Shown here in pieces: positions 32,576-40,009 of a stretch of 64,000 bases of DNA. The stretch comes from Clostridiales bacterium (lineage in GTDB: Bacteria; Bacillota; Clostridia; Lachnospirales; Lachnospiraceae): the NCBI GenBank assembly GCA_029010495.1, contig JAQXKO010000025.1:62001-126000 (forward strand), read 5' to 3'. The notes beneath the pieces were generated by a model. That model was not told where the DNA came from. It saw only the letters and a program-made list of their open reading frames with translations, and did not search any database. Position numbers and translations under genes: made by a program. How positions within the stretch are numbered: the first letter of the stretch is position 1; the number at the start of each line of letters is the position of its first letter.

Positions 32576-32608
32576 AAAATCCCTCATGAAAGTGGGGGAT
32601 TTTTTATT
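32576..32608 (+). terminator. Rho-independent terminator after rpsO
   Basis: AAATCCCTC-ATGAAAG-TGGGGGATTTTTTATTTT. Confidence 0.85.
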
Positions 32609-32694: not shown

Positions 32695-32714
32695 TACATC
32701 GCAAAAAAAAATAT

Positions 32715-32809
32715 GCAGAGTAGAAACATATGCGTTAAGTGTTAGCCGAACGGGGAGTTGTCGGTTAAACGAAAAGTATTCTTGCGGTTTATGTTTCGCA
32801 TCCCGCTGC
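32715..32809 (+). ncRNA. Tetrahydrofolate (THF) riboswitch
   Basis: GCAGAGTAGAAACATATGCGTTAAGTGTTAGCCGAACGGGGAGTTGTCGGTT...GCGGTTTATGTTTCGCATCCCGCTGC; carries the GAGTAG, GCGTTAAGTG and terminal CCGCT elements of the THF class and precedes a folate-transporter gene. Confidence 0.88.
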
Positions 32810-32867
32810 TACATAAGGATTTCCTTTTGTAGCTATTTGCATAAATATACTACTTAAGGAGGTAATT

Positions 32868-33470
32868 ATGGATTACATTTCACGTAATTTAAAGGGACTT
32901 CTTTTGGATTTTAAGAAGTCCTTTTTTGGTGTAAGGCTTTCTACACCAATGTCAAAAACAATTATGCTTGCCCTGATGGGTGTGCTCACAGCACTTTCGA
33001 TTGCATTTGAAAGGGTGGTATATATTCCGGTAGGTGATACATCCAGATATTCGCTTACCTTTATGATGACCGCAGTATGCTGTGTCTCACTCGGCGCATT
33101 AAGAGGAGCAGTCGTTGCAGTGCTTGCTGATGTAATAGGCGCAATTATCGTTTATGGTAACGCTAATCCGCTTCTTACAATATGTGTGTGTTTATCGGCT
33201 CTTACATATGGTCTTATTTTATATTGTAATCAGAGCATTGTGAGAATTGTAATAGCCGTACTCATTGACCAGCTTATTATCAGTCTTATTTTGAAAACCG
33301 GTGCTCTTTCCGTATGGTATTACGGAATCAGCCAGTATTTTAAAGTATTCGGTACGAGAGTGCCTCAGGTGCTTATCATGATTCCGATTCAGATTGTCGT
33401 TCTTATTGTATTTTCAAAATTTATTTTTAAATATTTGCAGAACATAGTAAAGGAATATGTTGAAAAATGA
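32868..33470 (+). CDS. folT: ECF transporter S component, folate family (FolT)
   Basis: Multi-TM protein with LALMGVLTALSIAFERVVYIPVGDTSRYSLTFMMTAVCCVSLGALRGAVVAVLADVIG; under a THF riboswitch. Confidence 0.85.
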   Translation: MDYISRNLKGLLLDFKKSFFGVRLSTPMSKTIMLALMGVLTALSIAFERVVYIPVGDTSRYSLTFMMTAVCCVSLGALRGAVVAVLADVIGAIIVYGNANPLLTICVCLSALTYGLILYCNQSIVRIVIAVLIDQLIISLILKTGALSVWYYGISQYFKVFGTRVPQVLIMIPIQIVVLIVFSKFIFKYLQNIVKEYVEK

Positions 33471-36022
33471 ATTATAAAGAAGCAAAAATGTTACTTTTAT
33501 CTGACAGGTTTAATCTGAGCATGCCCGGTACGGACAGGATTAAAAAGGTATTATCAATATTGGGAAATCCAAATGATAAAATAAATTGTATTCATGTTGT
33601 CGGAAGCAATGGGAAGGGCTCTGTGTCAACAATGCTTTCGTCAATCTTTGGCATGTCAGGTCTAAATGTAGGTTTATTCAACTCTCCATATATTACAGAA
33701 TTAACCGAATACATTTCTCTTAACGGTAAAAACATGTCAGAAGAGGATTTTGCTTACTATTTTAACAAGGTTTATGAGTGTCTGTCACAATGCGGGATTG
33801 TGTTGACACATTTTGAAGTGATTACAGTTATGTCGGTGCTTTATTTCGCAGATAATAATTGTGATTTATGTATTTATGAAGCCGGAATGGGGGGCACATC
33901 AGATGCGACTAATGTGTTCCCGCATTCTTTATTAACCATTCTTACGACAGTATCATTAGAGCATATTGAATATCTTGGTAATACAATAGAAAGTATTATA
34001 AGCAATAAGCTCGGAATAGTCGGCAGAGGAGAAACTGTTCTTACATGCTTTGATAAATATCAGGATATTATTGAAAAATATTGCAGGGATAATCAGTTAA
34101 ATCTATGTATCGGTGACTCAAAAGCAGTTAATGTGAAGGAACTATATATTGACAGGATTTGCTTCGAGTATTGCGGGGTGGAATATAATCTTAATACAGG
34201 AGCCGTTTATCAGATTAATAATTGTATTACGGTCATAAATGCAATAAAAATAATTAACGGACTCTGTTTGTTTGATAATGTGGCTGACGAAACTGTAAAA
34301 AAAGCGTTTGAAACATTTTATATTAAATCACGTTTTGAAATTATCTGTAAAAAGCCTCTTATTATTGTTGACGGTGCACACAATTCCGAATGTGCTGAAT
34401 CAATAGCCGATATGATAAAAATGCATGGAATTGATAATTATATTCTTGTAACAGGAGTGATGAAGGATAAGGATTACAAATCCATTTATAATAAAATTGC
34501 TGTACATGCGAAAACAATAATTACAATTGACAATAATATTCCAAGAGCATTAAAAAGTGATCTTCTTGCGAGGGAGTGCCGTAATTACTGCGATAATATT
34601 ATTGATGCGCGCGATGCTGTTTATGCGGCAGAGTATATTTATAATCATGCAGAGGAAAATACAATTGTTTTATTTGCCGGCACTCTGTATATGACGGATT
34701 CATTTAAGGAAGCAGTCAGGCTGTTTTATGACTCAGAGTATTGTTTGAAATCATCGGCTGATATGATTCACAGACTTACGTCCAAAAGCTTTTATTCGAC
34801 ACATTATCCGATTGATGACATGAAGAGTATGCTTCGTTATTTTAATAATCCCGAAGAGTCCTACAAAATAATACATGTGGCAGGAACAAACGGCAAAGGT
34901 TCAACATGTAAAATGCTTGACGGACTTTTAATAAATAATAATCTTAATGTCGGCTTATTTACGTCTCCTTATATTAAAATATTCAATGAAAGAATCACAT
35001 TTAATGACACACCGATTGAAGATGCTTATTTATCTTATATAGGCAGTTTGGTTTTGGAAAAAATGACAATAATGGGGCTTGATTTAAATCAGTTTGCGAT
35101 AATTACATTAATTGCATTTATTTATTACAGAATAAAAAGGGCTGATTATGTTATCCTTGAAACAGGTCTTGGAGGTACTTATGATCCGACAAATGTAGTA
35201 GACAAGCCTGCTGTATCTGTCATTACAAATATCGGGCCGGACCATATTGCCGTGCTTGGTGATACCATTTCTTCTATAGCAAAGGCAAAGGCAGGTATTA
35301 TTAAGAAGGATGTACCTGTTGTTGTATATCCTTCGGAGGAAGAGGCAGTCAATGTAATTATTAATCAGGCAAAGACAGTGAAATCCAATGTAATATTTGC
35401 AGATAAGCAGGAAATATCATCAGTTGATTATGACAGTTTTGTATATAACAATTATCGATACAGGATTGGATTAGTCGGAGATTACCAGAAATTAAATGCT
35501 CTTACTGCAATAAAAACTTATGAAGCGTTAATAAATGACAAAAGGTTAAACATGGAGCCTGAATATATTTCCGACTGCCTGTCTAAAACCTCTTGGCCGG
35601 GCAGAATGGAAAAATTATCAGATAATCCGTTATGTTATGTCGATGGCGGACACAATGTTCAATGTATTGAAAATGTACTTGCATTTTTTGAAAAATACTA
35701 TCCATCAAGAAAAATAATAGTTATAGCCGGCTTTATGAAGGATAAGCAATATGATGAGATGATTAAGCTGTTATGTGAAAAATGCAGCAAAATATTTCTC
35801 ACACAGGTAAATTACCCGCGCTCTCTTAACATTATGGAATTGACTAAAATCAAAAATAGATATAAAATATTATCTGATGTGTCTGAATCGTTGGGGGAGG
35901 CTTTTTTGAAGGCAACAGAAGCTTATGATGATAATTCGGTTATATTTATTACCGGTTCTCTGTACCAAATTAATGATGCATATAATTTGTTTGATTTTGG
36001 AGGAGTGAATGGAAGAAAATAA
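33467..36022 (+). CDS. folC: Tandem double folylpolyglutamate/dihydrofolate synthase (two FolC units in one ORF)
   Basis: Two P-loops (HVVGSNGKGSVSTML, HVAGTNGKGSTCKML), two EAGMGGTSDATN/ETGLGGTYDPTN motifs, two VDGAHN/VDGGHN motifs; ATGA overlap with folT. Confidence 0.92.
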   Translation: MNYKEAKMLLLSDRFNLSMPGTDRIKKVLSILGNPNDKINCIHVVGSNGKGSVSTMLSSIFGMSGLNVGLFNSPYITELTEYISLNGKNMSEEDFAYYFNKVYECLSQCGIVLTHFEVITVMSVLYFADNNCDLCIYEAGMGGTSDATNVFPHSLLTILTTVSLEHIEYLGNTIESIISNKLGIVGRGETVLTCFDKYQDIIEKYCRDNQLNLCIGDSKAVNVKELYIDRICFEYCGVEYNLNTGAVYQINNCITVINAIKIINGLCLFDNVADETVKKAFETFYIKSRFEIICKKPLIIVDGAHNSECAESIADMIKMHGIDNYILVTGVMKDKDYKSIYNKIAVHAKTIITIDNNIPRALKSDLLARECRNYCDNIIDARDAVYAAEYIYNHAEENTIVLFAGTLYMTDSFKEAVRLFYDSEYCLKSSADMIHRLTSKSFYSTHYPIDDMKSMLRYFNNPEESYKIIHVAGTNGKGSTCKMLDGLLINNNLNVGLFTSPYIKIFNERITFNDTPIEDAYLSYIGSLVLEKMTIMGLDLNQFAIITLIAFIYYRIKRADYVILETGLGGTYDPTNVVDKPAVSVITNIGPDHIAVLGDTISSIAKAKAGIIKKDVPVVVYPSEEEAVNVIINQAKTVKSNVIFADKQEISSVDYDSFVYNNYRYRIGLVGDYQKLNALTAIKTYEALINDKRLNMEPEYISDCLSKTSWPGRMEKLSDNPLCYVDGGHNVQCIENVLAFFEKYYPSRKIIVIAGFMKDKQYDEMIKLLCEKCSKIFLTQVNYPRSLNIMELTKIKNRYKILSDVSESLGEAFLKATEAYDDNSVIFITGSLYQINDAYNLFDFGGVNGRK

Positions 36023-37046
36023 TGTCGGCCTTGAAAAAGAATTATCAAATAAAAGAAAAGAAAATCGATTTTCTTTCGAGGATTTTGAAAAGGCTGAGAA
36101 TAATGAAAATTTTATTGCGGATAAAGAAGCGATAATTATACCGGACGATAATTCCGATACATCACTATCTGAAAAGGATAATACAGAAGAGACGACTGAA
36201 GGAAGCGAAAATATCAGCATAGAAGAGTCGGCTGAGGAAAGAGAAAGTGTCAGCATAGAAGAGCCTGCCCAAGGAAGCATAAAGGATAACGAGTACGATG
36301 CTTTGGAATCTGCTGAAAATCAAATATTTACCGAGGAAGAAAAATACAGGGCATTTTTGCAGGAAGCATTTTCAAACCCGGCAAATGAGGCTATGACAGC
36401 AGATTTGGAAGAGAAGAAAGAGGCACTAAACACAGAGCTGCTTGAGGGAAAATTAATGCTTGAACAGCTTCGTGAAGAAGTTGAAAGGGAAGAAGAAAAG
36501 ATTGCTCCGATAAGAGATGAATATATGAAAAAAATTGAAGAGATGGAGCAACAGATAACAAAGCTTGAGCTTGACCATAAAATTAAAGTTAAAAATCATG
36601 TTAAGCGAAAAGCTGAATTGAATGATCTTAAAAAAGAAATGAAAAATGAACAGATAAATCAGGAGGTTTATCAGGATGTTGCCGATGCATTAAAAGAACG
36701 TGCGGAGAAAACATTATTTAATAAACAAAAAATTCTTGATTTATACAATGAAAAGCAGAATGAAGCTGATGATTCCAAAAATAAATTCATTGATATGATG
36801 CTGAAGATAGAGGAGCTTGAAGCCGGAAAGGATGAGGAAGAAGCAGCTCATCAGCTGGAAGAGGAAGAATTCCTTCAAAATAAAGAGAAGCTGGAAGAAG
36901 AACTTAATCAGATAAAAAATGAACTTGCTGAAAAAACATCTGATTATATGGAAATAAAATGTAAATATGAGACTGATTTGAACGATTTTTCAAATAAAGA
37001 AAATGATTATCTTGAGATAGTCGCTAAGTTATCAGAACTCAAATAA
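36009..37046 (+). CDS. Acidic coiled-coil protein of unknown function
   Basis: Long heptad-like E/K-rich region (LEEKKEALNTELLEGKLMLEQLREEVEREEEK...), no TM; overlaps folC end by 14 bp. Confidence 0.65.
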   Translation: MEENNVGLEKELSNKRKENRFSFEDFEKAENNENFIADKEAIIIPDDNSDTSLSEKDNTEETTEGSENISIEESAEERESVSIEEPAQGSIKDNEYDALESAENQIFTEEEKYRAFLQEAFSNPANEAMTADLEEKKEALNTELLEGKLMLEQLREEVEREEEKIAPIRDEYMKKIEEMEQQITKLELDHKIKVKNHVKRKAELNDLKKEMKNEQINQEVYQDVADALKERAEKTLFNKQKILDLYNEKQNEADDSKNKFIDMMLKIEELEAGKDEEEAAHQLEEEEFLQNKEKLEEELNQIKNELAEKTSDYMEIKCKYETDLNDFSNKENDYLEIVAKLSELK

Positions 37047-37076
37047 ATAGAAAAGTATTTATAACAGGGGAATAAA

Positions 37077-38150
37077 ATGGGAGAAGAACAATTATTTGCA
37101 AGTAAAGCGGAAAAATTATATTTGAAAATTGAAAAAGCCCAGCAAAAGCTTAATGAAGCTGATGATCCGGCTTCGATTAATGCAATAGGTAAGCTTATTA
37201 TTAAACTTCAGAACGAATTGCAGATGACGGGTAATCAACTGTACATATCAAAAGCAAATGAAATAATCAATCTCAGAAAGTTTAATAAGCAGAAGAAAAA
37301 TATAAATTGGAAGCCAATTGTGTTATTACTTCTTTTATTTGTGTTATTTGGCGCTTTGATGTATGGAGGTAAAGATAACGATACACCTAAACAGACCGGC
37401 AATAAAGGAACCGGTACTCAGTCGGCAAACATTAAAACTGCTACCCCTACAGTGAAAGGTGATAATTCGCAGATAGGTGCAGTTGAACCTGGAGGAGAGA
37501 ATACGATTCAGCCTACAGAGGAATTGAAGTCTACAGAAACGCCTGTACCTTCAAATACAAAATATGTTACGCCTACAAAGCAGATTATCGCATCTGCCGC
37601 AACAAACACCCCTACGCCGACGAAGAAGGTTAACACGCCTACACCGACGAAGAAGGTTAACACCCCTACGCCGACGAAGAAGGTTAATACACCTACGCCG
37701 ACGAAAAAGGTGAATACACCTACGCCTACGCCGACGACGAAAGTTAATACACCTACACCGACGAAGAAGGTTAATACGCCTACGCCTACGAAGAGAGTTA
37801 ATACGCCTACGCCGACTAAGAAGGTTAATACACCTACGCCTACGCCGACTCCGATTTATGTTAAAAATTCTTCGATGAATTTTTCAACCAAATGGCCAAG
37901 TAATTCTTACAGTTATATTTATCAATACAATTTTGACTGTTCGGCACTTAATAAAAATAAGGTTACTTCAAAAACCAGGGTTACGGTAACATTTTCCACG
38001 ACTATTACCGATGTTGTTCAGTCCTGGAACGGAACTGTAACTAATTCGGGTAATACTATTATTATTACAGGATTTACCGGGTCAAATCCGGGCTTTAGTA
38101 TTGAAGCAGGTGAAAATCTGAAAATACTTTATATAACTGTAGTATATTAA
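37077..38150 (+). CDS. Single-pass membrane protein with NTPTPTKKV stalk and C-terminal CBM2-like domain
   Basis: TM WKPIVLLLLLFVLFGALMYGG near residue 80; nine-unit TPT linker; C-terminal VTFSTTITDVVQSWNGTVTNSGNTIIITGFTGSNPGFSIEAGE resembles CBM2. Confidence 0.7.
   Translation: MGEEQLFASKAEKLYLKIEKAQQKLNEADDPASINAIGKLIIKLQNELQMTGNQLYISKANEIINLRKFNKQKKNINWKPIVLLLLLFVLFGALMYGGKDNDTPKQTGNKGTGTQSANIKTATPTVKGDNSQIGAVEPGGENTIQPTEELKSTETPVPSNTKYVTPTKQIIASAATNTPTPTKKVNTPTPTKKVNTPTPTKKVNTPTPTKKVNTPTPTPTTKVNTPTPTKKVNTPTPTKRVNTPTPTKKVNTPTPTPTPIYVKNSSMNFSTKWPSNSYSYIYQYNFDCSALNKNKVTSKTRVTVTFSTTITDVVQSWNGTVTNSGNTIIITGFTGSNPGFSIEAGENLKILYITVVY
37605..37853 (+). repeat. Tandem 27-bp repeats encoding NTPTPTKKV (about 9 units)
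   Basis: Repeated aaygttaayacrcctacrccgacgaagaag-type units, two with TPTPTPT insertions. Confidence 0.92.
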
Positions 38151-38170
38151 TTTCACATTTTGAGGTGTTT

Positions 38171-40009
38171 ATGGAAGAAAATAAAGAGAAAAAAAAGAAT
38201 TATAAAAATCTGATAATTTTTATATTGTTGTTGATGTTTATCGGAAGTGGCGGGTATCTTTTGTTTGGCAGCAAAAATGAGCTGGATAACGAATATGTCA
38301 GCAAAGGTAACAAACCGACTTATTCTGCCAACGATAATCCTGCAGGCGGGAATACTGCTGAGATAGGCAAAGATAATGATGAAGAATCTTTGGAATTAAC
38401 AGGCAGTCCATCGGAGGACGTCACACCGACAAATGAACCGACAAAATCAGAACCGACAGTCGAAATTACTGAGGTAATTACACCTACAGGAAATGTAAGC
38501 GGAACGGCAACTGCTTCGCCTACGCCTGAAAAAAAGCCCGTGACTGTTCCTACAAAGACTGTTACAAAGGCTCCTGCGGTAACACTGACAAAGGTTCCTA
38601 CAAAATCACCTGTAAATGTATCAGGGACACCTGTTTCAATTCACGGAAAGCTTGGTGTATCGGGCACAAAGCTTGTTGATAAGAATGGAAAGGCATTTCA
38701 GCTCAAGGGCGTCAGTACTCACGGAATTGCATGGTTCCCTGGTTATGTAAATAAGGCTGCTTTTCAAAATCTTCGAGATGACTGGGGTGCTAACACAGTC
38801 AGACTTGCAATGTATACTCATGAATCTGGCGGATATCTTGCGGGAGGCAATAAAGCTGAGCTTGAAAAAATTGTTACAAATGGTGTTCAGTATGCAACCG
38901 AATTGGGAATGTATGTAATTATTGACTGGCATACACTTAACGGCGCCGGTTCAAATCCTGCCAATACATTATCAGATGCAAAGCTTTTCTGGAATAAAAT
39001 TTCTAAGAAATATGCATCCTATAATAATGTTATATATGAAATATGTAATGAGCCAAACAGCGGAGCGTCCTGGTCCTCAGTAAAGGGGTATGCTGAAGCG
39101 GTAATTAAGGTTATCAGAGCTAATGACCCTGATGCAGTCATTCTTATCGGAACTCCAACCTGGTGCCAGGATGTTGACCAGGCAGCTGCAAATCCGATTA
39201 AGGGTCAGAAAAACATCATGTATACTCTTCATTTTTATGCCGGAACGCATAAACAATGGCTTAGAGATAAAATGGTTGCGGCAATCAACAAAGGACTTCC
39301 TATATTTGTCTCTGAATTCGGTATTACAGATGCATCCGGTAACGGAGCATGCGATATTAAAGAAGCAAACACCTGGATAAAAACGCTTGACAGCTATAAC
39401 GTAAGCTATATTTGCTGGAACCTGGCTAATAAAAACGAATCGTCAGCCATGATAAAATCGGGCGTATCAAAAACCAGCGGATGGACGTATAGTGATTTAA
39501 AGGATGAAGGAAAATGGTTTGTCGATGTTCTGCGCGGAAGAATAAGTCAGGACAAGGTGGGAGCATATAAGTCCGGTACAGGCGAAAATATAGTTGCTCC
39601 AAAGCCTTCGTTAACACCTACAAAGTCACCCGGAAGTGCAACGCCTACTCCTACAAAGACGCCTGTTGCAACACCGACCGTAAAACCTGTAGATAAACCC
39701 GAAAGCTTTTCGGCAAACGGTGTTACACTAAAGCCAGAGAATTCCTGGGAAGGCAACTGTCAATATGCCATAAGCTTTCAGAATAATGACGGCTCTCCTG
39801 TAGATGATTGGACTATCAAAATCCAGTTTGAATCTGCCGTGTCGGTTAATAACGGATGGAACTGCAGTTATTCTGTCGAAAATAATAATATTATTATTAA
39901 ACCCGCAAGTTATAATAAATATTTACCTGACGGAAAATTAAGCAATGTCGGTCTTATAATTCATAGTGAAAAAGGTTTTAAAATTAAGAATGTAACAATT
40001 ACATATTGA
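38171..40009 (+). CDS. Membrane-anchored GH5 endoglucanase with TPT linkers and C-terminal CBM2-like domain
   Basis: N-terminal TM LIIFILLLMFIGSGGYLLFG; GH5 residues VIIDWHTL, IYEICNEPN (acid/base), FVSEFGIT (nucleophile); C-terminal VDDWTIKIQFESAVSVNNGWNCSYSVENNNIIIKPASYN like CBM2. Confidence 0.88.
   Translation: MEENKEKKKNYKNLIIFILLLMFIGSGGYLLFGSKNELDNEYVSKGNKPTYSANDNPAGGNTAEIGKDNDEESLELTGSPSEDVTPTNEPTKSEPTVEITEVITPTGNVSGTATASPTPEKKPVTVPTKTVTKAPAVTLTKVPTKSPVNVSGTPVSIHGKLGVSGTKLVDKNGKAFQLKGVSTHGIAWFPGYVNKAAFQNLRDDWGANTVRLAMYTHESGGYLAGGNKAELEKIVTNGVQYATELGMYVIIDWHTLNGAGSNPANTLSDAKLFWNKISKKYASYNNVIYEICNEPNSGASWSSVKGYAEAVIKVIRANDPDAVILIGTPTWCQDVDQAAANPIKGQKNIMYTLHFYAGTHKQWLRDKMVAAINKGLPIFVSEFGITDASGNGACDIKEANTWIKTLDSYNVSYICWNLANKNESSAMIKSGVSKTSGWTYSDLKDEGKWFVDVLRGRISQDKVGAYKSGTGENIVAPKPSLTPTKSPGSATPTPTKTPVATPTVKPVDKPESFSANGVTLKPENSWEGNCQYAISFQNNDGSPVDDWTIKIQFESAVSVNNGWNCSYSVENNNIIIKPASYNKYLPDGKLSNVGLIIHSEKGFKIKNVTITY

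Follow-up and report, generated by a model that had tools for sequence, protein, structure and literature searches.

Two complete FolC units in one polypeptide encoded behind a tetrahydrofolate riboswitch and folT in a genus of Lachnospiraceae

The DNA analysed here, referred to as the window, is a stretch of 64,000 nucleotides from a Clostridiales bacterium of the family Lachnospiraceae (assembly GCA_029010495.1, contig JAQXKO010000025.1, positions 62,001 to 126,000 of the forward strand). It contains a gene, folC::folC, whose product carries two complete FolC units in a single chain and which, judged from its sequence and genomic setting, is most likely a folylpolyglutamate synthase (FPGS) pair that traps imported folate. 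All window features described below lie on the plus strand.

The gene is one open reading frame of 851 aa without an internal stop (33467-36022), in which Pfam recognises two Mur_ligase_M and two Mur_ligase_C domains. When the protein was cut after residue 428 and the parts were run separately against the folC model TIGR01499 (cut-off 162.65 bits), half 1 scored 272.7 bits and half 2 scored higher, at 346.9 bits. The boundary falls between residues 425 and 426, near position 34740, where the initial annotation had placed it; half 1 (aa 1-425) thus spans 33467-34741 and half 2 (aa 426-851) spans 34742-36022. The motifs quoted in that annotation are present, among them the P-loops GSNGKGS of half 1 (aa 46-52; 33602-33622) and GTNGKGS of half 2 (aa 473-479; 34883-34903). 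An AlphaFold2 model built from five fusion sequences (mean pLDDT 86.1, pTM 0.78) shows two complete FolC folds, and a Foldseek comparison with the PDB gave Lactobacillus casei FPGS as the best match (2gca, TMt 0.84), with the top seventeen matches all being FolC or FPGS entries. Full-length fusions, 45-46% identical to folC::folC across some 845 aa, are found in three further species of the genus (G001, G002 and G004), and in another member, G003, the contig ends within half 2, after the frame has crossed the junction. These sequences rule out a sequencing or assembly artefact, or a stop or frameshift near 34740, and confirm the earlier description of two full FolC units in one frame. No FolC besides folC::folC was found in the source genome (1.76 Mb in 28 contigs, 90.6% complete).

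In the model, half 1 closes with a helix (aa 407-421) and half 2 opens with one (aa 423-438); a single residue separates the two, with no flexible linker between them (34685-34780). This helix-to-helix junction suggests a fairly fixed arrangement of the two halves. The in-frame start codons at the junction have no Shine-Dalgarno sequence nearby, and separate translation of half 2 was rejected on these grounds. With no internal ribosome-binding site, the two FolC sites are probably always made together.

The initial annotation had raised the matter of other two-unit FolC proteins and their place in a tree. We scanned 397 genomes of the family, 295 of the order, 391 of the class and 399 of the phylum, in overlapping samples, scoring the top two or three candidates per genome at E cut-offs of 1e-55 to 1e-85, and found no further FolC-FolC fusion. 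The long frames that were inspected were different fusions or extensions out of the gene. Five frames of 615-681 aa among the class and phylum candidates (G1038, G889, G994, G725 and G1050) are, by their length alone, too short for two FolCs. Plasmid matches were single FolC genes of about 1.2-1.3 kb to which both query halves aligned, and viral contigs gave none. Within the limits of these samples, the architecture appears to be confined to one genus.

Both halves possess the complete fold and the full set of invariant residues of the FolC/FPGS family (TIGR01499; L. casei 1jbw, E. coli 1w78, M. tuberculosis 2vos). The protein differs from these enzymes in having two units per chain, in the loss of the pterin-pocket Glu and Arg from half 2, and in the loss of Arg82 from half 1. 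Proteins in which FolC is joined to another folate protein are already known, as are tandem Mur ligases. The halobacterial FolP-FolC (PMC1274311), FolT-FolC and FolD-FolC-MTHFS proteins similarly chain FolC to a neighbour of the same pathway; however, the partner is not a second FolC. The MurE-MurF tandem ligases (PDB 8f5d) also have two Mur-type ligase units per chain serving one product line, but they act on cell-wall substrates and are arranged differently, with a weak whole-chain fold match (TMq 0.37). We found no FolC-FolC fusion in the open-licence papers searched, nor one with the opposite pocket changes described below; the individual parts are all known and, by this literature, their combination would be the new element.

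Several other FolC fusions were seen in the course of the scans. In genome G067, a single frame of 616 aa encodes both FolT and FolC (L080:8722-10569, minus strand; TIGR04518 88.4 bits, TIGR01499 340 bits), and no THF riboswitch was found upstream of it. A 916-aa open frame in G213 (L055:907-3654, minus strand) contains FolD-, FolC- and MTHFS-like domains, and G136 (L066) has FolC with the MTHFS portion. In G013, a 615-aa frame (L115:3452-5296, minus strand) within a folP-folBK operon carries FolC followed by a C-terminal region resembling HD-domain hydrolases.

The surroundings of folC::folC point to folate uptake. A full-length tetrahydrofolate (THF) riboswitch aptamer (RF01831; 89.3 bits, gathering threshold 36) lies at 32714-32810, behind a terminator-like hairpin at 32576-32603 (a 12-pair stem with a T tail, identified by consensus match only) that would part rpsO from the folT operon. 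It is followed by folT (32868-33470), which encodes a folate ECF transporter substrate-binding S component of 200 aa (TIGR04518 74.1 bits, cut-off 60) and has the Shine-Dalgarno sequence AAGGAGG before its ATG. The folT stop and the folC::folC start overlap by 4 nt (ATGA). The gene order is infB ... ribF - rpsO - THF riboswitch - folT - folC::folC - two ORFs - GH5-like gene - pnp, the core of which is retained through to pnp in G001 and G002. The riboswitch also precedes folT in all four other members of the genus and in G216, which belongs to a different, sister genus of the same family. THF-I riboswitches control folC, folE and folT in Firmicutes (PMC9881143).

The interval from folC::folC to pnp (36009-40009) is occupied by two ORFs, one coiled-coil-like and one containing a (PT)n linker, and by a GH5-like cellulase gene. 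The GH5-like gene occupies the same place in G216 and is an odd neighbour for a folate operon.

Family searches of the five genomes of the genus gave no folP or folK match above cut-off, and this absence indicates that the genus imports folate. The five genomes are drafts, 81-94% complete, but gaps are hard to accept as the cause of two genes missing from all of them. Both genes were found in 10 of 31 sampled genomes, and 11 to 13 of 14 control genomes were positive. DHFR is present in four of the five genomes. Of 11 other genomes picked mainly for a folT-linked FolC, folP was missing over cut-off in 10, the exception being G213. We built a tree from 123 FolC sequences, both halves included, by a quick search with SH-aLRT support only and without resolution of the deeper branching between the halves. 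In this tree a folP-operon clade (34 sequences, SH-aLRT 99) stands apart from a folT/salvage clade that contains both halves. At L. casei position 124, 33 of the 34 folP-operon FolCs have Glu, which is not among the commonest letters of the salvage clade. This Glu may mark FolCs of the dihydrofolate-synthase type in the family and is apparently absent elsewhere in the sample.

Monofunctional FPGS has been predicted for salvage organisms, with no motif separating it from the other type (PMC1971073). An enzyme of this kind would act on reduced folates and not on dihydropteroate. folC::folC agrees with this prediction in its linkage to folate uptake and in the lack of de novo genes in its hosts; a bifunctional dihydrofolate synthase (DHFS)/FPGS belongs with a host that makes dihydropteroate via folP and folK, which these five genomes lack. 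The missing folP and folK, the THF riboswitch-folT context and the placement of both halves outside the folP-operon clade together make a DHFS role unlikely and folate trapping likely, and a dihydrofolate-synthase half is not expected.

The unfused state is preserved in G216, where folT is followed by folC1, a 25-nt spacer and folC2; folC1 ends in TAA, and folC2 starts behind GGAGG. The G216 genes share the neighbours ribF, rpsO, folT, the GH5-like gene and pnp with folC::folC, and each is orthologous to one half. In the tree, the half 1 sequences form a clade (SH-aLRT 99) that is joined by G216 folC1 (95) and then by the G067 FolT-FolC protein (99), and the half 2 sequences form a clade (100) joined by G216 folC2 (99). 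Since each half clusters with its own G216 counterpart, the duplication of folC appears to predate the divergence from G216, and the fusion to have followed it. The origin of the gene would accordingly have had two steps, the first giving two adjacent salvage-type folC genes, as still seen in G216, and the second being the loss, in the common ancestor of the genus, of the stop codon and the 25-nt spacer.

Across 116 FolCs (114 tree sequences with the L. casei and E. coli enzymes), 20 alignment columns are invariant. Both halves retain every one of them in each species for which there are data, and both are therefore probably active. The L. casei residues K50, S73, E143, H170, K185, R300, D313 and H316, which represent the P-loop, the Mg-binding Ser, Glu and His, the invariant lysine, and the C-domain DGxHN motif with its Arg, are all found in both; the lysine is Lys181 in half 1 (34007-34009) and Lys608 in half 2 (35288-35290).

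The halves differ in the pterin pocket, and in opposite ways. Half 1 keeps Arg24 (L. casei R24, E. coli R34; 33536-33538) and the pterin-pocket Glu117 (L. casei E122, E. coli E125; 33815-33817) in five of five species, but has Tyr82 (33710-33712) at the position of L. casei R82 and E. coli R92. This Tyr is found in all five species and also in G216 folC1 and G067. Further oddities of half 1 are Thr in place of S412 and a variable residue at the position of L. casei K190. In half 2, Asp451 (34817-34819) aligns with Arg24 of half 1 and reads D, G, D, D and E in the five species, while Arg at this position is itself not universal (39 of 114 FolCs). Asn541 (35087-35089) replaces L. casei T119, which is Thr or Ser in most FolCs, and Ala544 (35096-35098) replaces L. 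casei E122, a position that is Glu or Asp in 148 of 148 other FolCs (the 116 and a further 32). Both Asn541 and Ala544 are the same in five of five species. In G216 folC2, position 119 is already Asn and position 152 Pro, yet Glu122 and Arg24 are still present, which implies that half 2 lost these two residues after the split from G216.

For M. tuberculosis FolC, a model based on E. coli 1W78 places R49, S150 and E153 around the dihydropteroate, with R49 joined to E153 by a salt bridge and S150 hydrogen-bonded to the ligand (PMC9637297). We equated these residues with ours through the S/T-x-F-E motif and the alignment of the E. coli and L. casei enzymes, not through the M. tuberculosis sequence itself. 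The Arg, Thr and Glu of this pocket (E. coli R34, T122 and E125) are kept in half 1 and are Asp451, Asn541 and Ala544 in half 2; the same three residues also occur in the L. casei enzyme, which functions only as an FPGS. As this enzyme keeps both Arg24 and Glu122, loss of the Arg-Glu pair is no known mark of chain extension.

The initial annotation had contrasted SLEH with GPDH and VDGAHN with VDGGHN as differences between the units. Within either half these motifs differ from species to species of the genus, half 1 of other species reading GLDH or SIDH and (I/A)DGGHN, and we rejected them as markers of role. The broader proposal that the divergence reflects split roles holds in part: the divergence between the halves is conserved, which makes their specialisation likely, but a division between DHFS and FPGS is unlikely.

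We favour, with moderate confidence, the reading of folC::folC as the FPGS of a salvage operon, of the two-step origin outlined above, in which half 1 takes the monoglutamate and half 2 extends the chains. The THF riboswitch would sense a shortage of THF and FolT would import folate; the gamma-glutamates added by the tandem FolC would then retain this folate in the cell in a form that folate enzymes can use. Both halves would be ATP-dependent glutamate ligases. Half 1, with its ordinary pterin pocket intact, probably accepts the incoming monoglutamate, and half 2, from which the pocket Arg-Glu pair is gone, probably extends chains, where pterin recognition matters less. A split of labour within polyglutamylation, between first addition and extension, is plausible and fits the pattern of residues; the order given here for the two halves is a guess, and the reverse may hold. 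Genetic precedent for a pair of FolC-type enzymes dividing the work within a cell comes from Lactobacillus reuteri, whose FolC and FolC2 have genetically separate roles (PMC5061717). However, the L. reuteri enzymes are encoded by separate genes, its FolC2 is assigned to COG1478 rather than COG0285, and the organism is a folate producer (PMC5061717).

A further, possible but tentative reading is that the two sites work as successive stations, with half 1 recognising the pterin, adding the next glutamate and passing the product to half 2, which extends the tail without pterin recognition while the rigid junction holds the stations together. If this is true, labour would be divided inside FPGS and not between DHFS and FPGS.

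It is unlikely that the two halves are redundant, that is, ordinary FPGSs with the same substrates that a chance loss of the stop codon brought together, with a gain in dosage or stability and with drift as the source of the residue changes. The tandem pair of G216, with its 25-nt gap, shows an easy route to such a fusion, and FolC has also been joined to other genes, as in FolT-FolC and FolD-FolC-MTHFS. Set against this, orthologous halves share 41-60% (half 1) and 47-70% (half 2) identity between species, compared with 26-34% between the halves of one protein, and Ala544, Asn541 and Tyr82 are fixed in all five species, which looks like the maintenance of distinct constraints.

We consider it improbable that only one half serves folate and that the other, most likely half 2, now has a different substrate, such as another gamma-glutamylated pterin or cofactor. 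The loss from half 2 of the acidic residue that all 148 other FolCs have at position 122 is in keeping with such a change; however, the rest of its active site is unchanged, it scores above half 1 against the FolC model, and the operon contains folT and the THF riboswitch, with no genes for the biosynthesis of another cofactor recognised alongside. Slightly less probable still is that half 1 is a DHFS, adding the first glutamate to dihydropteroate, and half 2 the FPGS. All of the dihydropteroate-pocket residues are in half 1 and three are lost from half 2, but L. casei FPGS has the same residues, no dihydropteroate would be made in genomes that lack folP and folK, and neither half has the Glu at position 124 of the folP-operon clade, outside which both fall. 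The unusual substitutions in both halves might point to one of them being a catalytically dead scaffold or regulatory domain, but this is the least credible reading given the 20 intact invariant columns.

In FPGS the first extra glutamate and the later ones are added at one site and, to our knowledge, the control of chain length is not settled. With two FolC sites per chain, opposite and conserved changes in their pockets, and an unfused relative, folC::folC and its G216 counterparts would provide a natural set for finding the residues that choose between the start and the extension of the glutamate tail. The FolC-FolC and FolT-FolC proteins together show that folate salvage operons have built fusions more than once.
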